From positions 1-64,000 of the forward strand of contig RSEH01000051.1 in the NCBI GenBank assembly GCA_006503475.1: DNA of 64,000 nucleotides, given 5' to 3'. Of this stretch, positions 2,675-42,230 are shown one piece after another (within the stretch, counting starts at the first letter, position 1; each line of letters begins with the position of its first letter). The notes below the pieces were generated by a model that was not told the origin of the DNA, did no database searches, and saw only the letters and a program-made list of their open reading frames with translations. The DNA is from Stentor roeselii. Lineage: Eukaryota; Ciliophora; Heterotrichea; Heterotrichida; Stentoridae. The position numbers and the translations under genes were made by a program.

Positions 2675-4945
2675 ATGGAAGAACATGAAAAATCTACCTC
2701 AGAAGAGGCAAAAGATCCCTTCATTCCTTCAGAAATTTTGATTAATGCAAAAAATCATCTAAAGGCGAACCGCAACTGTCTTACCAGCTCTTCCATAAAA
2801 GATTATTCCCATTGCGACGTATGCCCCAAATGCGGTCTTCCAATAGTACTAAAAAAATAGGATAATACTCCTCTCAAACTTTTCTGCAAGATAGACGATC
2901 TGAAAAAGTTCGGAATCGCTTTTTACCTCTACTTCAAGATGGGCCAGACGATTTTCTGTTTGATGTTGATAGGATCGATCATGGCGATTCCTATAATGGC
3001 TATTAACTCAGCAAATGAAGGCGGCCTGGGAGGAGATGTCAATACCTGGCCATCGACTTTATCATCTCGAATCAATGATGCAAGTGGTTGGATGGTAATT
3101 ATTTATACTCTTTTTTTTGCGCTGATTTTTAATGTTTTGGTGAAATCCATTTATAAAACCGCAGGAAGTTTTAAGGTTTCTGATAAAAACCCTTCCAGCT
3201 ATACTGTTATGGTTACCAATGTACCTGATGGAATTGATGATAATGAGTTTAAGAAAGCCATCGAGGATGATGTTTTTGAAAAGTCTAAACAGAAGGTCGA
3301 GGTGAAAGATGTTTGCTATGGGTATCAAATCGATCAGTTTATTAAAGATTGTATTGACTATCATAAATGTGTCAATATATTAACTAAAAGAGGAGAGAAA
3401 AATGTTAAAAAACTTTGGATTTTTAGGAGAACTAATGAAGAGCTCAAAAAAATGATGGAAGATTACAAAAAGAAAATAGATGAACAAAAATACAACAATT
3501 TCGAAAAAAGAAATTCATTTGCATTCGTAACATTCAAGACTATAGCTCAAAAGATCATAGTAAAAAAGCACTACAAACTAACACCCTGGCAAAAATTCAA
3601 AAACCTCTTAAAATATCTTTGCTGTTGCTTCACATTTTGCTATTTATGCCGCAAAAACACTTCCCTTGCCCGAGGTTCTCTAAAAGTGCGATCATCTCCA
3701 GCACCATCAGACATAATCTGGCAAAACTTATCCCTCTCAACTTTCGAAAGATTCCTAAGGCAATCAATAGGTTCATTAGTGTCAACAATACTATCAATAA
3801 TCTGCAACATGCTAGTTCTATCACTGCAATTCGAGAAATCAATGATAAAAAACAATCAATCGTCCGATTCAGGAGGACTGACGATTTTTATCTCCCTTTT
3901 GATTATAGGGTTCAACATGCTGATTTCCAAGGCACTAGACTTCTGTGCGAACTTCGAATGCCACATCAGCTATACAGATCTGACCATATCAAAAATGAAG
4001 AAAAAATTATACTACACGACCGGCAACACAATCATCAGCCTTTTGATCACTTTTCTTTTTGACATGATGCACGGGAACTATTTGAATGAAAATTCGAAGC
4101 TTCCGGGGACCATCACAGCCTGGGTATTCATGGAAGCCGTTGTTACGCCCTTTCTGCTCATTTTCGACCCTTGGTACTTGTGGAAGGTGTATCGAAGAAG
4201 ATTGATGGAGAAGGGAAAACTGAAAGCGGGGCAAGACTCAGCTTATGATATTTTCACAAACCCGCAGTTTGACATCTCGGATCGATCTGTGAAGTACATC
4301 AGGCTCATCGGAGTCATTTTGACATTTTCTGCTTATTTCACTTTTGGATTCCTCTTCTCGTTGATTCCGATCACGACTTATTACTGGACTGATAAAATTT
4401 TGTTCTTGAGAAGATACTCCAGGTCGAATGAACTTGGAAAAAAAATCAGTCTTCATATTCTGAAGTACTTGGAGGATAATTGCTTGAAGTACCTGGTAAG
4501 GGTTATTTAGTATGGCTCAATCATTTTCTTTTCTTTGTGTCTGAAAAGGTCAGATATTTATTACATTTTTATCCCTGTGTTTTTATACGTTTTTTTGATG
4601 TTTTTTTGGTGTTGCTGCAAAGGAAAGATATGCAATATCCTAGAGCTGCCTAATAATTACGCGAAAAAGTTTAAGTATGAAAATTGCAGTCAGCAGGAAT
4701 ATATACCTGAGAAGTTTGAAATCACTTATCGCACTACTAACCCTGTTCATAAAAAGTTTATCATTGATAAAAGACAGAAAACTGAAGAAATGATAGCTTT
4801 CGAGCGTGGGGATAAAGAGCTGAATGAAATTGTTATGAATCTTTATAAATATGCCGTAAATGCCAAAGATGATGCTAAAATGGCTGAAGAAATTTCTACT
4901 AAAATAGAAAAAGAAGAGGAAATGGAATCTCGAGTAATTTCTTAG
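2675..4945 (+). CDS. OSCA/CSC1/TMEM63-type osmosensitive cation channel, three exons
   Basis: Three reading frames join in phase when two 15-base introns (2846-2860 and 4496-4510) are removed, giving about 746 residues. Exon 1 supplies a cytosolic start with a CPKC pair. Exon 2 has an N-terminal hydrophobic span, a cytosolic RRM-like domain (SSYTVMVTNVPDGIDD to SFAFVTFKT) and the family hallmark APSDIIWQNLSLSTFERFLR followed by several membrane spans (RSN1_7TM/DUF221 region). Exon 3 adds one more span (IFIPVFLYVFLMFFW) and a charged tail. Known members are mechanically or osmotically gated Ca2+-permeable channels in plasma or organelle membranes; the exact stimulus here is unknown. A decayed paralogue fragment lies just downstream. 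The first exon ATG is the only good start. Confidence 0.85.
2846..2860 (+). other. 15-nt spliceosomal intron
   Basis: GTACTAAAAAAATAG, phase 0. Its terminal TAG would otherwise stop the first exon. Removing it joins ...GLPI to DNTPLKLF and carries the frame into the ATG-containing second exon. A is at intron position 10, as in the other five introns of this window. Confidence 0.85.
4496..4510 (+). other. 15-nt spliceosomal intron
   Basis: GTAAGGGTTATTTAG, phase 0. Unspliced it ends the channel at VRVI-stop. Spliced, it joins CLKYL to YGSIIFFSL and restores a further hydrophobic span and the C-terminal tail. A is at position 10. Confidence 0.9.
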
Positions 4946-6358: not shown

Positions 6359-7604
6359 TTACTTACGTTCTTGCTGCTTTATAAAATTTCTCAGAGCTGC
6401 TCCTGGAGGGATTCTTATACCGATCGGCTTTGACAGGTGTGGCGGCAAGTTCACTGGGCTACTTGGAGCGGAGTTCATTACTTGAGTTAGTTTATCACTT
6501 TGACCCATTTCGCCGAATTTCGCTTTGTATTTCTCGAAGAGTGTCATTTCACCTCGAGCAGGAGCTTGAGGACTTTTAGCTCTCAAGATATCAGCACCTT
6601 TACTCGCCTTCAAATACGAGGCTCTTTCTGCGAATTCACACAAGAAGAACTGCTGAGGTCCTAAAACCGATCCAGGCCTACAAAGTCTAGCCCATCCAAT
6701 GAATTCAGGTCCAGTAAACCCAAAGTTCCTGATAGCCCAGCATCCAATAAGTGTGCCAGTCCTTCCAAGTCCAGCCTTGCAATGAACAGCGACAACAGAT
6801 TTGTTGTCGTTGCAGATCCTAATAAACTCTTCAACAATATCATCAGCAGGGACACTTCCATCTAAAAAATAAAGATCATGAAAGCGGATGCCATGCTGAG
6901 TGATTTTCGAGCAGTCGTAATGTTCCTTGTTGAGCCTGACGACGGTATTCACCCCGATGTCCCTGAACAAAAAGCCGTAGTCTTCAGGCGACATGGCCTC
7001 GCCCTTTACTTTCTTATCAGGACTAGGCGCACTAAAGGCGAGGATCTTTTTAGGGACTATCCAATTGAGTCCTCCATTTTCCACATACGACATCGTTTCG
7101 TATTCCTGAAGATTAAAAGAGTTGAAGTCGAACCAAGCCAACTTAATCGCTTTTTCAAGTCCTTTAAGGCAGTCCAAGATGTAAAGTTCGAAAGGCGAGC
7201 CTTCAGAGCTGGCATCTCTGAAAGGAATAAAGCGATTTGTGTTCTCGAAGTACTCCCAGGCCTCCTCTGCTGTTCTTTCCAGTCGAATGACTTGATAAGC
7301 GCCCATCAGCAAAGCAGCGTTGGCCCTCTTGGCAGGGATTAGGGAAGTGTAGTGGTAAATTGAATGATGAGAGTACCTCGAGTCAGTCAGCAGCTGGTCA
7401 AGATGACAGCAGAACTTGTAAACACACCCCAGGTCCAAAGGCCCGAAGTCACTTGCGTAGGGCATGTAAACTAGTTCCTAGGTGAATCTTACTTGGTCTA
7501 TGCAAAATGTGTGCACTCGTGATTTTGAAGCTGGAGGAGAACGGTCGCAGACCCAGAACAACTTACGCGGAATTATCTCGATTGGGTGATTTGCTGGCAA
7601 CATT
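6359..7604 (-). CDS. CDC14: Cdc14-type dual-specificity protein phosphatase
   Basis: This is a dual-specificity phosphatase of the Cdc14 family, which dephosphorylates CDK-type phospho-Ser/Thr-Pro sites in mitotic exit, cytokinesis and cilium biology. The catalytic loop HCKAGLGRTGTL carries the nucleophile Cys (about residue 270) and the Arg. The family signatures YASDFGPLDLG, KRANAALLMGAYQV and WARLCRPGSVLGPQQ are all present. A 15-base intron (7478-7492) joins an upstream exon whose last part, VHTFCIDQ, runs into ELVYMPYASDFG exactly as in other Cdc14 proteins. The exon-1 ATG at 7604 reads MLPANHPIEIIPRK, but about 60 bases later the family-like frame (FWVCDRSPP) is one base out of step, so exon 1 holds a +1 frame break or a sequence error. 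The C-terminal tail is basic and Pro/Ser-rich. Confidence 0.85.
7478..7492 (-). other. 15-nt spliceosomal intron
   Basis: On the minus strand it reads GTAAGATTCACCTAG. Removing it joins HTFCIDQ to ELVYMPYAS, the expected Cdc14 N-terminal sequence. A is at position 10. Confidence 0.85.
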
Positions 7605-28953: not shown

Positions 28954-29144
28954 GATAAAGTGATTATTTTTAGATTGCAAAGAAACTGAAAGAAGAAAAA
29001 AAATCGACAGCAAAAAAAACCAACAAAAATTTCAATAAAACTCCTGAAAAACATAAAACTCCAACCAAAACCTAAAAATAACCCAAACCAATTCAAATCA
29101 ACCCATCCTTCCTCAATAACCCATAAAAAACTTAAAAATACCAC

Positions 29145-29198
29145 TAAAAGATCTCCAGCTCTGCTTGACTTTAAGCAAAACCTTCACACGACCTTTCA
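29145..29198 (-). promoter_or_regulatory. Candidate SECIS element of thioredoxin reductase
   Basis: It lies in the 3' region of the TrxR gene, about 31 bases past the in-frame TGA. On the minus strand, helix I is TGAAAGGTC paired with GATCTTTTA (9 bp with G-U pairs). The non-Watson-Crick core pairs TGA (in GTGTGAA) with GGA. Helix II is GGTTTTGCTT paired with AAGCAGAGCT (10 bp). The apical loop begins with unpaired AAA, 11 bases after the core TGA. This matches the eukaryotic SECIS plan (UGA, AA, GA). The distance to the Sec codon is short. The fold was made by hand, not computed. Confidence 0.75.
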
Positions 29199-29222
29199 CA
29201 CCAAGGGGCCAGGCCCAGGCCC

Positions 29223-30755
29223 TTAACCTCAGCATCCAGTTTTGACGGCACTAGCTCCAGACCTCTTAGTAACAAACAGTTTTGTAACTTCTTCTGCAGA
29301 AGTAGGATGAATTCCTACAGTCATATCAAGTACATCTTTAGTAAGGCCAGCTTTGACAGCGACAGCGAATCCCTGAATGACTTCGCCAGCATGTGGTCCT
29401 AAGAAGTGTATTCCGATGACTTTTCCATTTTGCAAGTTAACCAAAACCTTAGCAAAGCAAGTCATTTCCTCCCTTTCCGGCAAGAAGTTCCATTCAAGAG
29501 GCCTGAAGACTGAATGAAAGACTTCCACATTTTCATCTCCTAGGACCTCTCTTGCCCTTTCCTCACTATACCCGACACTTCCATACTCCAAGGGTGTAAA
29601 GACCGTAGTTGCGATATTTAGATAGTCCATCAAAACAACTGACTTCCCGAAAAGTCTTCTTGCAAGTAAAGTGCCGGCTTGAATAGCGACAGGAGTTAGT
29701 TCAGGCTTCCCGTCAGCGACGTCTCCGACAGCCCAGATGTGGGGAATGTTTGACTGGTCCAAGTGATTCACGAGGACCTTTAAGTTTGAAGCGCTTGTCT
29801 CCACCCCCGCGTTTTGCAGGTTAAGTCCTTTGGTAAGGGCGTATCTTCCTATCGCCAATAGAACCCCTCCGTAAATCTCGACTTTTTCTTCACCACTTTG
29901 GGTGTAAAAGACTTGCACTCGACCATCTTCTAACTTTTCGAATTTACTTGGAACCGCTTCTCGGATAAATTCAATTCCTGAATGTGACATGAACGCTCCG
30001 AGCTTTTCAGCGATTTCTTGGTCGAAACCTCTTAAAAGAATGGATCTTACCATTATTTTCACCTTTTTGCCTAAACCGTGAAGAAAACCTGCACATTCTA
30101 AACTGATGTAAGAAGCTCCTACTACTAAAAGATCGTCTGGAATCACTTTCATTGAAAAAATGTCGTCGCTTGTGAAACAACAGGACTCTGCACCGGGTAT
30201 TCCGTATGTGGGTCGACCTCCGACTGCTATTAGAAAATGCTCTGAAGTTACTTTTTTTACCACTTTTCCTGTTTTATCTGATAAGGCCACAGTGTGAGGG
30301 TCAACGAAACTTGCATAGTTGTTGAAGTACTGAACGTTTTTATCCATGAGTTGAATCCTGTATCCCCAGTTGAGAGTTTGAATGTGTTTTTGCACATTAG
30401 TGACCATTCGTTCCCAATTGTGTCTTTTTTCACCAGGCAACTCCCAGCCACAGGCCTGTTGGTCTTTGTACTGCTCTCCAAAAGAAGCAGAATAATGCAT
30501 GAGTTTTTTAGGAATACAGCCTACATTGACACAAGTACCTCCCAGTCCCCAGGCAGTACCCTTGGGCGAAGGACTGACGAAATCAGCCAAAGCGACCTTG
30601 GCACCGAGAGAAGCAGCTTCTTTGGCACTGGCAAGTCCTCCAGACCCTCCACCAATGACGAAGTAGTCATATTCATAAGGAGAGTTCCTAACAGGAGCCT
30701 CTTCCATTTCCATGTCGTCGGCCATGGCGATGTCCATTACTTCTTCATCAGCCAT
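29223..30755 (-). CDS. TXNRD: Thioredoxin reductase, selenoprotein (C-terminal Gly-Cys-Sec-Gly)
   Basis: This FAD/NADPH flavoenzyme reduces thioredoxin. It has the FAD motif VIGGGSGGLASAKEA (Gly residues 35-40), the disulfide GGTCVNVGCIPKK (Cys75/Cys80), the NADPH-site VVGASYISLECAGFL and the catalytic-base motif GIHPTSAEEV. The frame reaches GGA TGC TGA GGT TAA. This is exactly the Gly-Cys-Sec-Gly-stop end of large animal-type TrxR, so the TGA at 29231-29229 should be read as selenocysteine (residue 509 of 510). A SECIS-like hairpin follows at 29145-29198. A shadow annotation that stops at the TGA would lose the second redox centre. An acidic N-terminal extension (about 28 residues) precedes the FAD domain. 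TGA as an ordinary stop is the alternative, but the precise GCxG end makes it unlikely. Confidence 0.9.
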
Positions 30756-30834: not shown

Positions 30835-33099
30835 TTAACATTTTAAGGCTTCTTTCTTGAGCTGAACTAACAACTCACTCATATTTTTGTACTCTTTCGA
30901 GATATTCGATGCAAAAATATGAGCCTGTAGGAACTACTTAGGACTTACATGGTCTTCAAATTCAAATTCTCTCTTTTTGATACCAACTAAAGGATTATCT
31001 TGATCCATTCTCAGTTTAAGTTCATTTTCAACACGATGGTCAACTTGAATACCTAAATTTTCCAAAATTTCTTCAAGAGTTTCAAAACTTAAGTCATAAT
31101 CAAGATGTTCTTTCGGAACTCTTTTCATCATAATCATCTTCTTAAAAGTTATTTTTTTCTCTGACTCTTCTTGATGTTGACTTGCGAATTTCATTCTTTT
31201 TTCAATGAAACTTTTTACTTTCGTGTCTTTTCGGGTCCCTCTTCTGATCCCATTTGCCCTTTTCCAGATTAACCTGTTTTTTTGCTTGAAAGGAGTGTCG
31301 TTTTTGAAACTTATCATCACACCTGTGTCGTTTCGCTGAAGTTCACTCGTCGGGCCGTCATCAGAGCTGCTTTCAAAGAAGAACTCAGTGCTGAGACTAT
31401 TGTATTTTTGCATTTTTTCTTCTAAAGCTTCAAGAATAATTTTCTCATATTTTTCCCTTCTTAACTTCGCAACTTTTAAAACTTCTTCAAAAATTGGTTC
31501 ATAAGTTTTTAGGATGTTTATGTAATTTTCTTTGTTTATTGTGTAAATTTCAGCGAATCTTGTAAAAACACTTGCTGTGCAGATTCGGCTTATTTCATCT
31601 AAAACCTCGATTTCGCCGAAGTAGTATCCTTGAGGATAAACTCCGATGATGATATCTTCTCCAGCTTTGATGAGGACCCTTCCAGTTCTAATGAAATAAA
31701 CCTCATCAGCCAGGTCATCCTCTTCAAACAAAAGTTCTTCATAGTTAAAGTAATAAAGCTGCATATTGTCAAAGACACTGTTGATGAAACTCGTTGGTTT
31801 ATCATTAAAAAATTTCATGCATCTTGCAAGGTTCTGGTTACTATGAGTCTTTATAGATTCACGTAAATTTGCAGGAAGGTCTTTAAAAATTCCCCAAAAA
31901 TGAACATTTTCCGTTTGAAACTTATAAGCGCTCATGTTTAAATAGTTCTTTACTTTCAACGTTAAGTCCAAGGGCAAGTCAATCGCTTTAGAAAAGTCTT
32001 TCAAGAACTTTTTTTTTGCTTTTAAAATCGACTTTGCCTGGTCTCTTGATTTGATAGTACTGCTCATCGCGCCAATCATGTAAGAATAAATCCAGGCCCC
32101 GAAGGCCATCATGACAATAGTGAAGATTTTTTCAGAGTTGCTGACTGGAGTGATGTCGCCGTAGCCAACAGTTGTAAAAGTTGTGAAAACGAAGTAAATG
32201 CAAGTCAGATAGATCTCAACATCGTCTTTATCAGAAATGTTTTGCTTGTCGATCCAAGTGAATTTTTCAGTTTCTCCCAGATTTGACACGTAAAACCAGA
32301 TGCAGCCTGAAATGTGGATGAATAAAGAAATACTGATGAAAAAACCAATTACTCTTGTTAGGTTTGAATTGAATTTGTTAGTCATTAGGAAAGTGTCGAG
32401 GAACTGGGAACGGGTAAATCGTAAAAGCTTTAAAAGACGTAAAATTTTTACTATTTTGTAGATTCGGGTTATTCGAAGAATCCTTAAAAATCGGTTGTAC
32501 ATCGCTGTGTCTGATTGCTTGGATAATATATAATCTAAAGGGAAACAAGAGAGAAAATCTATGAAAAACCAAGTTTTCAAATACTTAAAAGCGATTTGTT
32601 TCCTTGAATAAATAATTTTTTCTCTGATGGAAACAAGACCAGTGTTGAAATTAACTAAAATATCGAGAAAAAAAAGAGAATCCACACAAATATCTAGAAT
32701 TGCCCAGCGGTCATCTTGTAAAAAATTAAAACAAATGCGATAAGGTAAAACAGTAGCTGTGTAGAACAGTAAAAGCATTAAAATGAAATTCCAGATCAAC
32801 TTAAAGCTCGATTTTGGATGAAATAAGAGTTTTTTACCGAAAATACGAGGTTTTACTTCAAAAGACTCATGAGGTAGTTCTTTAGCTCTTCTTGATCCGT
32901 AGTTTTCGATTTCTCGTTTGATTCTTAAAAACCTTCCAATGATTTTAAGGAACACCCGGATCCTACCCCAGTAAATATCCACTTTTGATTTACCTTTTCT
33001 ATGGTTTTTTAAGATTTTACTGTATTCGATGTCCGGCTTGCAAATTTTTTTACTTTTATCAAAGAAAATTTCAGTTCGTTCATGTTCATAAATGCTCAT
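30835..33099 (-). CDS. CNBD-containing voltage-gated K+ channel (EAG/HCN type), two exons
   Basis: This is a six-span K+ channel subunit. S1 begins near LIWNFILMLLLFYTATVLPY. S4 has regularly spaced Arg (RFLRILRITRIYKIVKILRLLKLLRF region). The pore is TTFTTVGYGDITPV with the K+-selective GYG. A C-linker follows, and then a cyclic-nucleotide-binding domain (LADEVYFIRTGRV to GYYFGEIEVLDEISR). The apparent stop at 30934-30936 is the end of a 15-base intron (30934-30948). The spliced exon 2 adds 32 residues (FLQAHIFASN to a helical tail ending LKC), about 749 residues in total. It is transcribed divergently from a second CNBD channel gene 200 bases away. Such channels link cyclic nucleotides to membrane potential and ciliary behaviour. 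Confidence 0.9.
30934..30948 (-). other. 15-nt spliceosomal intron
   Basis: On the minus strand it reads GTAAGTCCTAAGTAG, phase 0. It joins FEFEDH to FLQAHIFASN and removes an apparent TAG stop. A is at position 10. Confidence 0.85.
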
Positions 33100-33298
33100 C
33101 TGATTTATAATAACAAATCGAATAGCGAAGAGGAGAAAACGATTTTTTTAACTAACTAAAAAACGATTTTAATGAAAAAATTAGAATTTCAGGGATTTTT
33201 AATAGGTTTAAAGAATGAAAACTGCGAGTTTTTTCATTAATTTCCTTTAAAAGTTCTAATTTGGTCTAAATTGCGTGAATTTTTCAGGATATAAGAAA

Positions 33299-35260
33299 AT
33301 GGAAACCCAACCCTCAGAGAACAGGAGAAGTTCTGTTGCTTTTTCTAGTAAAAGCATCAATAACCTAAGTTTAACAGCGAGAAGAAGAGAATATATCTTC
33401 AGCCATAACATAGAAAACTTCAAAGTTTACGAAATATTTCAAAGAGCAAAAATGAAAATCAAATGTGTTCAGTTCTTCACGAGCATCATCAAAGATATAA
33501 AAGGTTATGGGACAGGATCGAGTTTATTTGACGGGACGAAGAACTACAAGGAGACCCTTCCCGTTATCATGATAAAAAAAATTATTGAAAAGAAGGAACC
33601 TGAAGTCGTTCAGGTTAAAATTGAAAAAAAATCCGTTATTTTGCCTCATTTTCTAGTCTATAAAATCTGGAACATGATTTTAAGTTTTGCTCTTATTTAT
33701 ACGTGCAGTGTAATGCCCTGGTTAATGGCCTTTCGTGAAACTCGAGGAACAAAGTGGGAATCAATTGAAATTTTCATAGACTGCATCTACATCTGCGACA
33801 TTCTAATCACAGCAAATCTCGCTTACACAGACAAAGAAGGTATTTTAGTCCATTCACGAAAATCAATAATAAAAAACTACACAAAAGGTCTTCTTTTCAT
33901 TGACATCCTTGCAATCATTCCTTATCACTACTTGTCAAACCTTCCAAAGTTCAACAGTTTTTTTAAACTTCTAAGACTTGGACGACTTTCCATTTTGTTA
34001 AACTTGATAAAGCTCGACACATTAATTTCATTTATCTCAGGTGGACGTGAAAAGGTGATCCTTTCAGTGAATCGTCTTTTTTCAGGAATCGGTTTTCTGA
34101 TACTTTTAGTTCATTTTTCCTCTTGTATCTGGAACATGTTGCCAAAAATCAATGAATATTCTCCTAGTTCCTGGATAGTCCGAAAGGAAAACATTGACGA
34201 CAACGACTGGGAACTTTACTTGACTGGGTGTTATTTCTCGATAACGACTATCATGACGGTAGGCTTCGGGGACTACTCCGCGATATCAAAATCTGAGAAA
34301 ATAATGTGCATTTGTTTAGAGTTAACAGGAATTTGCTTTTACTCATTTATTCTCAGTGTTATGACCTCTCTTCTCACAACTCTTGCACAAAAGGAAAATT
34401 TTATCAATACCAAAGCACAAGTCGGCCAAGTCTTATCTGAAGACTTGGAACTTCCTTTCAAGACAAAAAGTCAAATCTCTAAAGAAATTCGAAGGTTCTA
34501 CAAACATAACGTTTTAGAAGACAGTCAAATTCAAACCATTTGGCAGAGACTACCTAAAAAGTTAAGATATGAGTTGTTTCCTTTGATGTACTCTGGGAAG
34601 TTATCAAAGGTCTTTTTTTTGCAGAAACAGGAAAAGTTTGTAAGGTCGAGTATCATTCCGAGACTTCAGTTTTTAATGGTAAAGGAAAAAAATGTTATTT
34701 TTTCTGAAGGGGATTATCCTTCTAATATTTACTTTTTACTTACAGGAAGAGTTTCTTTTGTGTTTTCTGAGAGAAATATCGTGTTTAAGACTATGCTTCC
34801 TGGATCGTATTTTGGAGAAATTGGACTTTTGAATCATAAATATCGGGAATTTGGAGCTTTGACGTGTGTTAAAAGCGAGTTACTTGTTATGAGCAATCAA
34901 CTTATAAGGGATATGGTGGAACAGTTCCCACATGTTTATGAACAGATGAGGGTCACTGCTGCTGGAAGGGATGAAAGTAATAAGAGGGATACTAAGGATA
35001 TTATTGATGTTTTAGATATCTGTGAAATCACTAAAATGAAAACTTTAGATGAACTTGCTGGAATAAGAGTTTCAGATGAAGAGTTGAAACTTCCAAAAGT
35101 TGTCAAATATCCCTCAGGCTGGGTGAAATTCGAAAAAAATCTCGAACTTCAAAGCAAAGTCTACATCCATGAATTAATCGTAATTTTCAATCAGCTGATA
35201 AAAAAACGACTAGACCATTTAAATGGAATGATTCATAAAATATGTAAGATTATAAGATAA
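33299..35260 (+). CDS. CNBD-containing K+ channel with a GFG filter
   Basis: The first real ATG is at 33299 (METQPSENRR), giving 653 residues; the frame upstream has no ATG. It is a six-span subunit with S1 around VYKIWNMILSFALIYTCSVM, an S4 with spaced Arg/Lys and a pore ITTIMTVGFGDYS carrying GFG. A C-linker precedes the cyclic-nucleotide-binding fold (PSNIYFLLTGRVSFVF to GSYFGEIGLLNHKYREFGA). It is a distant relative of the neighbouring divergent channel, so the pair may come from an old duplication. The Arg that contacts the cyclic-nucleotide phosphate is near RE in the motif, but binding is not proven. Its TAA stop shares one base with the next gene's ATG. Confidence 0.88.
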   Translation: METQPSENRRSSVAFSSKSINNLSLTARRREYIFSHNIENFKVYEIFQRAKMKIKCVQFFTSIIKDIKGYGTGSSLFDGTKNYKETLPVIMIKKIIEKKEPEVVQVKIEKKSVILPHFLVYKIWNMILSFALIYTCSVMPWLMAFRETRGTKWESIEIFIDCIYICDILITANLAYTDKEGILVHSRKSIIKNYTKGLLFIDILAIIPYHYLSNLPKFNSFFKLLRLGRLSILLNLIKLDTLISFISGGREKVILSVNRLFSGIGFLILLVHFSSCIWNMLPKINEYSPSSWIVRKENIDDNDWELYLTGCYFSITTIMTVGFGDYSAISKSEKIMCICLELTGICFYSFILSVMTSLLTTLAQKENFINTKAQVGQVLSEDLELPFKTKSQISKEIRRFYKHNVLEDSQIQTIWQRLPKKLRYELFPLMYSGKLSKVFFLQKQEKFVRSSIIPRLQFLMVKEKNVIFSEGDYPSNIYFLLTGRVSFVFSERNIVFKTMLPGSYFGEIGLLNHKYREFGALTCVKSELLVMSNQLIRDMVEQFPHVYEQMRVTAAGRDESNKRDTKDIIDVLDICEITKMKTLDELAGIRVSDEELKLPKVVKYPSGWVKFEKNLELQSKVYIHELIVIFNQLIKKRLDHLNGMIHKICKIIR

Positions 35261-35883: not shown

Positions 35884-36558
35884 TTAACTAAGAGATTTTT
35901 CTGGGATTAATGAAAATTCTATGTATGTGCCAAATGGCCCTGCCTTTACTTGAATACCTTTACTTGTTAAAAAGTCGTTGATTTCGATGAATCCTTGAAG
36001 GACTTCGAATATCTTTCGTGCTCTTGTGTTTAGGATCTCGTAACAGCAGCCTATTCCTAGAACGAAGATGAAAATCGAGACTACACTTAACCATGGAATG
36101 TCTAACCAGTAACCACTTAGGATTAAGAAGCTGCAGAAGAAGAATAGAAATGTCACTCCGATGTAAAATAAGGTTTTTCCTTTTTGAGCCTGTTTGGGTA
36201 TTACTTGTCTCATTACGAAAGAACAGTGCTCTGATGCACTTGAACAGTATTCCTCGATCTGCTGCTGTGATACCACCTGAATCACTCTACACCCATCAAA
36301 TCTCTCCACTTTGAACTGGCCATCAGCAAATGTGGTATTACAACATAACATCTTGCTAAGAGGGGCTTTTGCTATTAGTGACATGTCGTCACTTTCTGGT
36401 ATGGCAAGTTGCTGACCTGATCCTGAGTCTTTTTAATGCTTACCATGCCATTTCGGAACAACTTGGACTTGCAGCTGTTCAGCTGGAGAGTGCATCAAGA
36501 CACTACCTTCAGACTGATGAGAAAGGTGTGAATAAGTAACTTTGTCCTTTTGATCCAT
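35884..36558 (-). CDS. Small two-span membrane protein, two exons
   Basis: A 15-base intron (36429-36443) joins a first exon starting MDQKDKVTYSHLSHQSEGS to the second at WHDSGSGQQLAIPES. The total is about 219 residues rather than the 166 seen without splicing. The N-terminal 110 residues are soluble (Cys at CCNTTF and a GQFKVERFDGCRVIQVV beta-like part). Two adjacent hydrophobic spans follow (LFYIGVTFLFFFCSFLILSG and WLSVVSIFIFVLGIG), and then a cytosolic tail. I do not recognise the family. It starts 60 bases from the divergent Rad9-like gene and probably shares its promoter region. Confidence 0.75.
36429..36443 (-). other. 15-nt spliceosomal intron
   Basis: On the minus strand it reads GTAAGCATTAAAAAG, phase 1. 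It joins VVPKWH-G to ACTCAGGATCAG and opens the frame back to the ATG at 36558. A is at position 10. It ends in AAG rather than TAG. Confidence 0.8.
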
Positions 36559-37710: not shown

Positions 37711-40053
37711 ATGCTAAAAAAATTATTGGTCTGGCTTCTTCTTCCAGTCCTATTTTCATTCACAGCATTTATCGCAGTCCGTTTGCCATCTCCTAAAACT
37801 AAAACTCTTTACCTTCCAGGCTCATCATCAAAGATTGACTTAACAAGAGACTCTCTCGGAATTCCACATATTTCTGCAGAGACTGCTGAAGAAGCCGTCT
37901 ACGGTTTAGGATATGCGATGTGTGAAGACCGTATGTGGCAAATCGACATGATGAGAAGATTAGCAACTGGGCAATTATCTGAAATGTTTGGAATTGATGC
38001 TTTGGAAACTGATATGTTTATGAGGAATGTCAAACTTGCAGAGATGGGCTTAAATGACACGATTAATGCCTCAGAACGCACTAAAGTATTTGCAGGGAAT
38101 TTTGTAAGAGGGATTAATGATGCAGCAGCAAATTCATGGTTACCACTAGAGTACTATCTTGTTAATCACAAATGGAAAAATTTCACTGAAGCTGAATCTC
38201 AGTCAATGCTTTACTTGACATCATTTTTTCTTTCTATGCTTTGGGGAAATGATGTTTTGAAGGTGCAGGTCAAAGAGTTTCTCGCTGAATTTAGTGAACT
38301 TGTTTTGCCGACTAGATTTGAATTTATAAACCCCAGAACTTTTATTGTTCGGGATGATGAACTTGCTGATGAACTTTTAGGAATTGAGGAAGAGTTATTG
38401 AAGAGTAACTTGACTAAAGTGGGTTTAAAGCCTAATTACTTTGACCAAGGCTCGGGTAGTAACGGATGGGTTATAAGTGGAAATCATACTTTAAGTGGAA
38501 AACCGATTCTTTCTAATGACCCGCACTTGTCATCGTCAATTCCGTCACTTTGGTACCTGAACCACCTGAATATTAGTGGAAAAAGCTTATTCGGCGTCAA
38601 TTCAGTTGGGTACCCTATGAGTGCCATTGGAAGAACTGAAAAATTCGTCTGGGGAATCACGGCGTCGAAAGTTGATGATGTGGACATCTATGAAGAAAAA
38701 CCAATAAATGATACACACTATATTTACAATGAAACCTTTTTGAAATTTGATAAAAAACTGGAAATTATTCAAATAAAGGGACAAAAATCTGCAGGTTTTT
38801 ATGTTAAGTCTACTATTCATGGCCCGCTGCTTGAAAAGACTTTAAAAACTGCGAAAAAATTTGTTCATACCTTGCCTGATGTAGAGTCTGAGAACCTGTC
38901 CTTCGCCTGGACATGTTTCGGTCACTTAGACCGAAGCATGGATTTCTCATACAAGATCCACGAAGTGGATTCAATCCACGAATTCCGCGATTTGATGAAA
39001 GGTGTAAGCGCAATAAAACTTGGAGTAGTCGCTGGGAGTTCAAACGGTGACATTTTATATCAAGCGACAGGACGTTCGCCACTGCGAGGAGCCGAAGGCG
39101 ACCAGGTCCTTCCAGGTTGGGACCCGAGGTACACCTGGAAAGGTATAATTCCATTCGAAGCCCAGCCCTATTCTCTAAACCCCAAAAAAGGTTTCATCGT
39201 GGCAGCAAACAACTTCATAACAAGCAAGTCATACAAACATTCCAATTCTCTAGGCCACTACTTCTGCCAGGGCCGTGCAGATCGTTTGACTCAGTTTTTC
39301 ACATCAAAAATCCAAGAAAACCACAAATTTACCTCAAAAGACCAAATTTTACTATTACAAGACGAGTTTGATATTTTCGCATCAGAAACTCTGCCAGTTC
39401 TTCTGTCAAAACTGAAAAATTCTTCAAAAATAATAGAAGAAAGAAAAATTCTTCAAGAATGGGATTTTATCATGTCACGAGAAAGTAAAGCTGCAGGTCT
39501 TTACGCGAACTGGCTGTTGAGGATCAGTTCGAACCTTCTCAGTCCTCATCTTCCTGAAGGCCTTTTACAGTCCTGTATAAGAAGCAACATAATGCAATAC
39601 CCTTTGACTAATTTTTTCCTTCCATTTTACCCGAGTTTAGAAGGACTTTGTGATGATCCGAAGACTGAAAGTGTTGAGAGCTGTGAAGAGTTGATTCAGA
39701 AGTCATTTGAAGAAGCTGTTGGACTTAGTAATGGCCGGGTCTGGGGAGAGATTCATGAAGTGACTTTAAGGCAGAACCCTTTTAGTATGAATAAGTGGGT
39801 TAGATGGTTCTTTGAAAGAAAAATGATTGTTGGAGGATGGGGAACTACTGTTCATGCAATTTCGAGTAACTGGGCAGTTGGACTTGCTGGAAATAATGGA
39901 CCTGGAGTTAAGTTTGTCGCTGATTTGGGAAATCAAACTGAAGGGTTTTGGAGCTTGGAGAGTGGAATGAGCGGAAATGCTCTGGGAAGACATTATGATG
40001 ACATGTTCAGTAGTTTTCATTATGGAGAACTTCCTAGGTTTGTTTTTCATTAG
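37711..40053 (+). CDS. Penicillin-acylase-type Ntn hydrolase
   Basis: This 780-residue amidase of the penicillin/acyl-homoserine-lactone acylase superfamily (S45) starts with a signal/anchor segment (MLKKLLVWLLLPVLFSFTAF). An alpha-chain segment follows (TRDSLGIPHISAETAEEAVYG and ALGYAMCEDRMWQ-like). Next comes the autocatalytic nucleophile GSGSNGWVISG, with Ser250 as the probable new N-terminus of the beta chain, then LSNDPHL and SAIGRTEKFVWGITAS. The enzyme self-cleaves and hydrolyses amide bonds. In eukaryotic protists it is likely secreted or lysosomal, with unknown substrate. It ends five bases from the convergent CNBD/TPR gene. Confidence 0.9.
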   Translation: MLKKLLVWLLLPVLFSFTAFIAVRLPSPKTKTLYLPGSSSKIDLTRDSLGIPHISAETAEEAVYGLGYAMCEDRMWQIDMMRRLATGQLSEMFGIDALETDMFMRNVKLAEMGLNDTINASERTKVFAGNFVRGINDAAANSWLPLEYYLVNHKWKNFTEAESQSMLYLTSFFLSMLWGNDVLKVQVKEFLAEFSELVLPTRFEFINPRTFIVRDDELADELLGIEEELLKSNLTKVGLKPNYFDQGSGSNGWVISGNHTLSGKPILSNDPHLSSSIPSLWYLNHLNISGKSLFGVNSVGYPMSAIGRTEKFVWGITASKVDDVDIYEEKPINDTHYIYNETFLKFDKKLEIIQIKGQKSAGFYVKSTIHGPLLEKTLKTAKKFVHTLPDVESENLSFAWTCFGHLDRSMDFSYKIHEVDSIHEFRDLMKGVSAIKLGVVAGSSNGDILYQATGRSPLRGAEGDQVLPGWDPRYTWKGIIPFEAQPYSLNPKKGFIVAANNFITSKSYKHSNSLGHYFCQGRADRLTQFFTSKIQENHKFTSKDQILLLQDEFDIFASETLPVLLSKLKNSSKIIEERKILQEWDFIMSRESKAAGLYANWLLRISSNLLSPHLPEGLLQSCIRSNIMQYPLTNFFLPFYPSLEGLCDDPKTESVESCEELIQKSFEEAVGLSNGRVWGEIHEVTLRQNPFSMNKWVRWFFERKMIVGGWGTTVHAISSNWAVGLAGNNGPGVKFVADLGNQTEGFWSLESGMSGNALGRHYDDMFSSFHYGELPRFVFH

Positions 40054-40058
40054 GTTAA

Positions 40059-42230
40059 TTAGTACTGGCGACTTGGTGGAAGAAGAGAGGATATCATCGA
40101 GCTTTTGAATGATACCCAACTTTGAAGGAATGATTGAATTGTTTTGGAGTCGAGGGATGAGGGACTGTCGATGTCGTCTACTTGGAGAAGGGTTGAGATT
40201 AGACGCTTTTGAAGCTTGGGGGATAGGAAATTTAGATGATAAGGCTTGAATTGAAGTACTTCGACTGAAGATGACTTGGCGATCTAATTAAGGCATACCA
40301 CAGAGAACTTCGAAACAGGAACCTTAATTTTCGGGTCAGTTGCAGGTAAAGTAAGAGCTCTACATGCAAAGTAATCATTTTCCTTCAATATTTTATACTC
40401 AATCCTTTCAACTTGCAACATTTTATCCTGTTGCTTCAAACATGTATCCTCCTGATGAACTTTCTCAAAAATATCTTTCCAAGTTGTAATAGTTAAACTG
40501 AACAAAGCTTGATTAATTTCACTTTGTTTCCTGACAATAATCCTCTCATCTTTATTCCTTTCACCTCGTTTCCCAGTACGCAAAGTAATTTTTTCCCTGT
40601 TGACCACGCGAAATCCTTCAGCAACAAGTGAAACAAATCCACTAACAATGACAAAAAGTCCATCAGGAGGTTTTTCAGTTCCAAGAAGCGTATCTCCATG
40701 ACAGAACTTTTTGACTTTCAAAGCCGAGGCAAGTGGAATAAGAAGAAAACGATTGACTCCCATGAAAAAGTCAACACTAGTCAAAGTTTTGAACTTCTTC
40801 TGAATGTCAAACTCGACCTGGTCGATTAACACCTGATTATACAGGTCTTTTGGCAGAGTGATTAAAATACAATGTTCCACCGCGCGACAACTTGTCTGTT
40901 GAAAAGCTTTAATCGCGGACTTTTCCTCTTCAGGTACCAGGGAAGACTCGCCGAAGTACCTCCCGTCATATAAAGTCGCGACTTCTACTGGATGACTGCC
41001 GAGCTCTTGGCAGAGCTTTTCCATTACAACTGAACCTTTTATTATTGCGAACATGTGACTCACTGACTCTCCTGCTGAAATTATTGTTTCACCTGCTTGG
41101 AATTGATGCACTTTTGAAAGGCTTAAAAGAAAAATACGAGTTTTTTCAGAAAATCTCGAAAAAAACTTGTTTTTTTTCGTTAAGTTGTCGAGAATCTCGT
41201 AGTCTCGAATTTGACTTGGCTTTGAAAGCTCGGAAATTATTTGCTTTGAATCGGTTTCAGAGATTGAATGGGAAAATAAACGCTTTGGTGTCAGTTTTGA
41301 AATGTTTTGGCTTAGATCGTTTAATTTTGAAAGGTCTAAATCTGGGCAGGGCTTTGATTCTGTTTTGAAAAATTTTTGGGAGAAGACTTCTGAGGTTTCA
41401 ACGTTTTCTTGGATGAAATTTGAGATTTTGTAGGTTTTTTTTAAGGGCTTTGGAAAAATTTGCTGTTTTTTTATTTGGGATTTTCCGAATAGCTCTTCTG
41501 GTGGAAAACTGGGAAGGTTGGAAACTGATTGTTTTGGACTTGGTTGTTTTTTGGAGATTGGGTTTAGTTTATTGAGACTTTTTGTTCGTTGGACCTGGTT
41601 TTGAGGTTTGTACCCAAGACTAAGTTTCTTCCAGTCAAAGTTTTCAACAATCCTATAAAAAGTCTTTTTCGGTCTGATAACTGTCGATTTACTAACAGGA
41701 CCTTCAGAATCCGATTTAATATTCATCCGAGATTCCAAAACACTAGAATACCTAACAGGTGCCCTAACAGCCGAATACGAAAACTTTAATTGAAAACATC
41801 CCGTCTTACCCTCAACATATTTTTTAAGCGATTCAAAATCCGGATCAGTGACTTTCCAGCAAAGGTTTAAACTACTAAGAGCAGCATTAAACTCATACTG
41901 AAAAACATAAGCCAAAGCCAAATCAAACACAGAGATTTCATTTTTCGCGATAGAAACAGCCTGAGTCAAATAACGAAGAGCAGCAGGTTTTTTCCCAAGA
42001 TACAAATAACAACACCCAACATTAGTCAGACACTCAAAGCTATTCGACAGTAGTTTATTAACCCTTTTAAACATCTTAAGAGCCCTGTAAAAATCACTTT
42101 CCAAATACGAATCAAGTGCAGCTTTAAACTCTCCATCAAGTTGAGACTGTTCCAAACATCTAAAAACCTTAGGAACAAAGATTTTACTAGAAAACCTCGA
42201 AGTACTTATAGATTTATCAGAGCAGTTCAT
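40059..42230 (-). CDS. TPR protein with two cyclic-nucleotide-binding domains, two exons
   Basis: The protein is about 718 residues. The N-terminal part carries TPR-like helices (LESDFYRALKMFKRVNKLL, NVGCCYLYLGKKPAALRYL, FDLALAYVFQYEFNAALSSL). A long Ser/Lys/Pro-rich linker follows. Two cNMP-binding folds come next: HQFQAGETIISAGESVSHMF to DGRYFGESSLVPEEEKSA, and FCHGDTLLGTEKPPDGLFVI. A 15-base intron (40284-40298) hides the end: the frame seems to stop at VVCLN, but splicing joins KFSV to IAKSSSVEVLQF and adds 74 residues. This is not an ion channel, since there are no spans, so it is probably a cAMP/cGMP effector or scaffold. The convergent amidase ends five bases away. Confidence 0.82.
40284..40298 (-). 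other. 15-nt spliceosomal intron
   Basis: On the minus strand it reads GTATGCCTTAATTAG, phase 0. The exon that follows stays open for 74 codons to TAA at 40061-40059. A is at position 10. Confidence 0.88.

Follow-up and report, generated by a model that had tools for sequence, protein, structure and literature searches.

Here, we describe a thioredoxin reductase (TrxR) gene in a stretch of DNA of 64,000 nt (hereafter the window) that encodes, with a probability of roughly 0.92, an animal-type (high-Mr) TrxR containing selenocysteine (Sec), in a heterotrich with the standard genetic code, the penultimate UGA being recoded via a SECIS element in the 3′ UTR. Three lines of evidence agree, namely homology, a TGA that takes the place of Sec and has Gly-stop behind it, and a SECIS-like element encoded on the strand of the gene; they support the proposal of an earlier note, made from the letters of the window, that this TrxR is a selenoprotein with its own SECIS.

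The TrxR frame comprises 508 codons up to the TGA (29229-30755 on the minus strand in the ORF list) and contains over its full length the Pfam domains Pyr_redox_2 (PF07992) and Pyr_redox_dim (PF02852), covering FAD/NADPH and dimerisation. In a phmmer comparison, residues 25-508 aligned with rat TrxR1 (E 2.1e-170) at 55% identity, which extends to the Cys before Sec. The motifs CVNVGC and IHPTSAEE are both present, which we take to be the redox motif and the base motif (HPxxAE) of high-Mr thioredoxin reductase, and C75, C80, H483, P484, A487 and E488 are the same residues in rat TrxR1. On the minus strand the frame closes with AAA ACT GGA TGC TGA GGT TAA, and in the alignment its tail VTKRSGASAVKTGC is paired with VTKRSGGDILQSGC of rat TrxR1, a segment that runs up to residue 497 of the 499-residue rat chain. 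The last two residues of that chain, past the alignment, are presumably the Sec-Gly of the animal enzyme, and the TGA thus sits exactly at the expected Sec position, with the Gly codon and a stop coming next. The C-terminal GCUG of high-Mr TrxR therefore has its counterpart in GC-TGA-G-TAA, known here at the level of DNA. The Gly-Cys-TGA-Gly-TAA end (29223-29234), which the earlier note had read as that of animal-type TrxR, is confirmed by these comparisons.

Table 1. Coordinates of the TrxR gene, its predicted downstream RNA structures and the candidate introns in the window.
Feature	Position	Strand	Basis or remark
Thioredoxin reductase CDS	29223..30755	-	510 residues if TGA = Sec (...KTGC-U-G-stop)
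Cys508 codon	29232-29234	-	sequence
TGA, proposed selenocysteine 509	29229..29231	-	flanked by Gly-Cys and Gly-TAA
GGT (Gly) codon	29226-29228	-	sequence
TAA, proposed true stop	29223..29225	-	sequence
GGGCC-TGGGCCT-GGCCC hairpin, SRE-like	29206..29222	-	folding energy; between TAA and SECIS
SECIS-like hairpin, two helices, 54 nt	29145..29198	-	MFE fold, pair probabilities, descriptors, shuffles
Helix I, 9 bp	29190-29198 with 29145-29153	-	MFE fold
5′ internal loop GTGTGAA	29183-29189	-	MFE fold
SECIS 5′ core TGA, G before (GUGA)	29184..29186	-	42 nt past Sec codon
Helix II, 10 bp	29173-29182 with 29157-29166	-	MFE fold
Apical loop AAAGTC	29167-29172	-	MFE fold
SECIS 3′ core strand GGA, then G	29154..29156	-	MFE fold
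Candidate 15-nt introns, GT..AG, A at position 10	4496-4510, 2846-2860	+	join open frames
Candidate 15-nt introns, GT..AG, A at position 10	7478-7492, 30934-30948, 36429-36443, 40284-40298	-	join open frames

Downstream of the TAA, folding predicts a SECIS-like hairpin (Table 1), in which all 19 pairs have probabilities of 0.83-1.0 and helix II includes three G-U pairs. The marks that the earlier note had listed, namely a TGA/GA core, an AAA in the apical loop at a distance of 11 nt from the core UGA, and helices of 9 and 10 bp, were all recovered in the MFE fold and the pair probabilities, including the UGA/GA core, whose absence from a fold prediction the note had named as decisive against its proposal. 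A published SECIS search rule (NTGA; AA at 10-13 nt; GA 15-39 nt further; PMC2375036) finds its elements in GTGA, AA after 11 nt and GA after 15 nt, the last being the lower limit, and the two helices (9 + 10 bp) surround the core in a stable fold, as expected of a eukaryotic SECIS. Counting against the SECIS reading, the core bases GUGA/GGAG differ from the commonest AUGA and KGAW; most ciliate GPx SECIS have the core UGAN/KGAW (PMC7409322), and in the UGAA/GGAG of the TrxR element the K of KGAW is matched while the final W is replaced by G.

The chance expectation for such a hairpin was assessed with two descriptors, a strict one, which was written with the target already known, and a permissive control, which was run for that reason and gives a weaker result. 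Dinucleotide shuffles of 29080-29228 reached an equal or better score in 50 of 20,000 cases with the strict descriptor (219 with any match) and in 69 of 5,000 with the permissive one (727 with any match). Over both strands of the 64-kb window, the TrxR site ranks first of 18 sites (21 hits) under the strict descriptor and only eighth of 330 under the permissive one, where seven sites score higher and one ties. We also searched downstream regions of 250 nt behind 37 ORFs (the 41 of at least 150 aa minus four overlapping larger ORFs; the end of the window leaves 11 nt of one region); the TrxR region obtained the top score with strict and permissive descriptors alike, any match being found in 2/37 and 10/37 regions, respectively. 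Published Tetrahymena SECIS were recovered in one of six cases by the strict descriptor, in four by the permissive one and in five with still looser limits. With the Rfam SECIS models, neither the gathering thresholds nor a limit of E<=10 produced a match; this is a criterion of detection, of uncertain sensitivity for protist SECIS, and not of function. Further, a MAFFT alignment of the six Tetrahymena SECIS yielded no consensus structure and hence no covariance model. We regard the predicted SECIS fold by itself as evidence of moderate weight and, together with the homologous Sec position, as strong evidence. The many permissive sites in the window, the non-canonical core bases, the short spacing described below and the lack of an Rfam match would all suit a situation in which Sec is inserted with the help of a different SECIS farther from the gene and the hairpin at 29145-29198 is due to chance; given that the TrxR region scores best of the 37 downstream regions with both descriptors, we consider this improbable. 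Another site with SECIS-like features, at 2103 (+), lies 176 nt past an ORF that ends in TGA (1447-1926, +) and is probably a chance match, because this ORF has no Pfam family and no recognised tail.

Stop codon usage bears on how the TGA is read. The 37 ORFs end in 17 TAA, 12 TAG (three of the TAG ends lie in putative introns) and 8 TGA, the TrxR frame being among the 8; the codon thus terminates seven further ORFs, in agreement with the earlier note, which had stated that other genes here use TGA as a plain stop. In 15 of 34 ORFs the next three codons include a further in-frame stop (4/8 of those ending in TGA and 11/26 of the others), and since a second stop so close is common here, TGA-GGT-TAA alone proves little. 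Both counts are compatible with the TrxR TGA being a plain stop as well, the protein ending at Gly-Cys508 with a decayed or shortened tail. This would, however, require that precisely the catalytic residue, at the Sec codon, had been lost while Gly-stop was retained, in a protein whose remaining active-site residues are conserved and whose 3′ region contains a SECIS-like element, and we regard it as still less probable than a SECIS located elsewhere. Splicing around the TGA was also considered: no GT..AG stretch of 15 or 16 nt covers it, and the stretches of 19, 24, 25 and 30 nt that do would each delete the conserved Gly-Cys tail. A variant code with TGA as an ordinary amino acid, be it Trp, as UGA is read in the heterotrich Blepharisma stoltei (PMC9942806), or Cys, as in Euplotes, is very improbable, because no TGA interrupts 34 ORFs that together comprise 16,840 sense codons, 216 of them TGG, and many of which span whole conserved domains (internal TGA being absent by construction), and a SECIS would then not be needed.

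If the UGA is recoded, as we prefer, the 3′-UTR SECIS would recruit the EFSec/Sec-tRNA complex to the ribosome, the penultimate UGA would be decoded as Sec and translation would stop two codons on at the UAA, giving a product with a -Gly-Cys-Sec-Gly redox tail. By the mechanism of animal TrxR enzymes, electrons of NADPH would pass through FAD and the other subunit's CVNVGC disulfide to this tail, and from there to thioredoxin. We infer both Sec insertion and enzyme activity.

The candidate introns (Table 1) are a further feature of the window. A seventh 15-nt candidate (40690-40704) has no A at position 10. The candidate at 7478-7492 would fuse a frame lying upstream with that of a dual-specificity phosphatase (Pfam match from profile position 35), presumably a Cdc14-like one. 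The 15-nt length class itself is not enriched (seven stretches have this length, and each of the other lengths accounts for 0 to 12), so the case for these introns rests on the branch A and on the frames that they join. In Stentor coeruleus, which uses the standard code, introns are 15-16 nt long and in most of them the branch A occupies position 10 (PMC9505925); the standard code is also reported for Fabrea (PMC10553269). The standard stops and 15-nt introns observed here fit, and suggest, a Stentor-like heterotrich with the standard code. Coding GC and GC3 in the window (37.9 and 38.1) are closer to those of Stentor roeselii (37.3, 34.2) than to those of S. coeruleus (32.8, 22.7) (PMC10384029).

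As to the gene content of the window, Pfam scans of the 37 ORFs (E cut-offs 1e-3, 1e-8, 1e-8, 1e-5) listed no family of the Sec machinery (EFSec, SBP2, SPS2, SepSecS or PSTK), and neither tRNA-Sec nor any other tRNA was found in the 64 kb with ARAGORN in its bacterial setting. Genes are tightly packed, adjacent ORFs, whether on one strand or on opposite ones, being 1 to 10 nt apart (junctions 9508/9515, 17700/17707, 19191/19202 and 43832/43834). Three genes with cyclic-nucleotide-binding domains lie within 12 kb (30934-33099 (-), 33275-35260 (+) and 40284-42230 (-)), two of which are ion channels according to Pfam. The ORF at 37711-40053 (+) encodes a protein of the Penicillin-amidase family (Pfam E 1.8e-145), a family that is unusual in eukaryotes, and its transfer from bacteria is possible.

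Directly behind the TrxR stop codon, we noticed another predicted hairpin, GGGCC-N7-GGCCC, that is not in the earlier note. It adjoins the TAA, is separated from the TGA by a spacer of 6 nt and, with -10.2 kcal/mol, has the top stability among 127,964 18-nt windows on both strands, although its five pairs reach probabilities of only 0.35-0.78 in the larger fold. The 30 nt and 90 nt past the TrxR ORF fold with -10.4 and -29.1 kcal/mol, respectively, the most stable values among 33 ORFs (the 37 minus four with intron or window-end problems), and among 18,260 sampled windows 46 (30 nt) and 43 (90 nt) were equally stable. SREs are stem-loops close 3′ of a Sec UGA that stimulate the insertion of Sec and inhibit termination (PMC8704476), and at a Drosophila readthrough stop, a downstream stem-loop acts depending on its distance and stability (PMC13170385). 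The hairpin at 29206-29222 is likewise a stem-loop a few nt past the Sec UGA and in this resembles the SREs of SELENON and SELENOT (PMC8704476); unlike these, it lies past the true stop, in the UTR, and its function is putative. By analogy to redefinition elements, we infer that it probably slows termination and favours recoding.

Counted from the Sec codon, helix I begins at the 31st base (30 nt between), matching the roughly 31 bases given by the earlier note, and the SECIS core follows after 42 nt. The judgement of the note that this spacing is unusually short stands in comparison with published figures. The minimum spacing reported for Dio1 is 51-111 nt, so the 42 nt of the TrxR gene fall below it, which speaks against the SECIS, although the counting points may differ, and mammalian selenoprotein genes have 207-5207 nt between UGA and SECIS (PMC3316567 section 14). 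Measured from the stop codon, the SECIS core is ~225 nt away in human TRs and 138 and 124 nt away in Euplotes TR1 and TR2 (PMC3737529), and for ciliate GPx SECIS in the 3′ UTR the mean distance to the stop is 76 nt (PMC7409322). We consider the compact spacing unusual relative to these systems and claim no record.

The enzyme type as such is already known, and the compact recoding signals are the unusual part. The mammalian Sec-TrxRs (TrxR1 and TrxR2/TR3) share with the gene described here the domains, the motifs, the GCUG tail (at the DNA level here) and a SECIS in the 3′ UTR. In Tetrahymena, UAA and UAG are sense codons. Three putative Sec-TrxRs with predicted 3′-UTR SECIS were described in Tetrahymena thermophila (TTHERM_00486500, TTHERM_00823430 and TTHERM_00047660; PMC2612030), the cores of which, as read from the printed RNAs, combine AUGA with UGA, whereas the TrxR described here has GUGA with GGA. 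The Euplotes crassus enzymes TR1 and TR2 are also ciliate TrxRs with Sec, but UGA in Euplotes additionally specifies Cys and is not a stop (PMC3737529), unlike in the window analysed here. Sec-TrxRs have furthermore been reported in algae and nematodes (PMC2375036) and, judged by titles and the beginnings of abstracts, in Acanthamoeba. On the same basis, none of the papers listed for Stentor in combination with selenoproteins is a TrxR study.

Searches for relatives with single-sequence patterns found none, and a two-row alignment search returned 27 loci on viral contigs and 80 on genome contigs (80 of at least 589 relatives). Among these 107 loci listed, identity to the TrxR in the best segment was at most 45%, and the longest motif-bearing frame of these prokaryotic or viral relatives never ended in GC-then-stop, which counts in favour of the Sec reading. 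A Cys within the last four residues occurred in 20 of the 107, in tails CCAG or CCSA, which we take to be as in mercuric reductases; no class was assigned to the other 87. None of the relatives listed looks like a eukaryotic TrxR, and these searches yielded no homologous eukaryotic locus.

A Sec-TrxR with a SECIS is thereby added from a probable heterotrich that retains UGA as a stop. Tentatively, and with somewhat less than even weight, we suggest that in this compact genome the recoding signal, made up of a redefinition-type hairpin and the SECIS, is packed into ~85 nt past the UGA and that the system either tolerates a SECIS near the decoding ribosome or depends on the adjacent hairpin. Such a condensed layout, if true, would stand between the bacterial arrangement, in which the element is adjacent, and the animal one, in which it is remote, and would place the SECIS core closer than the spacing reported to work in mammalian Dio1. 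The gene would then be a natural test case for how near a eukaryotic SECIS can sit to its Sec codon and for whether a hairpin past the UGA compensates for the short SECIS spacing.
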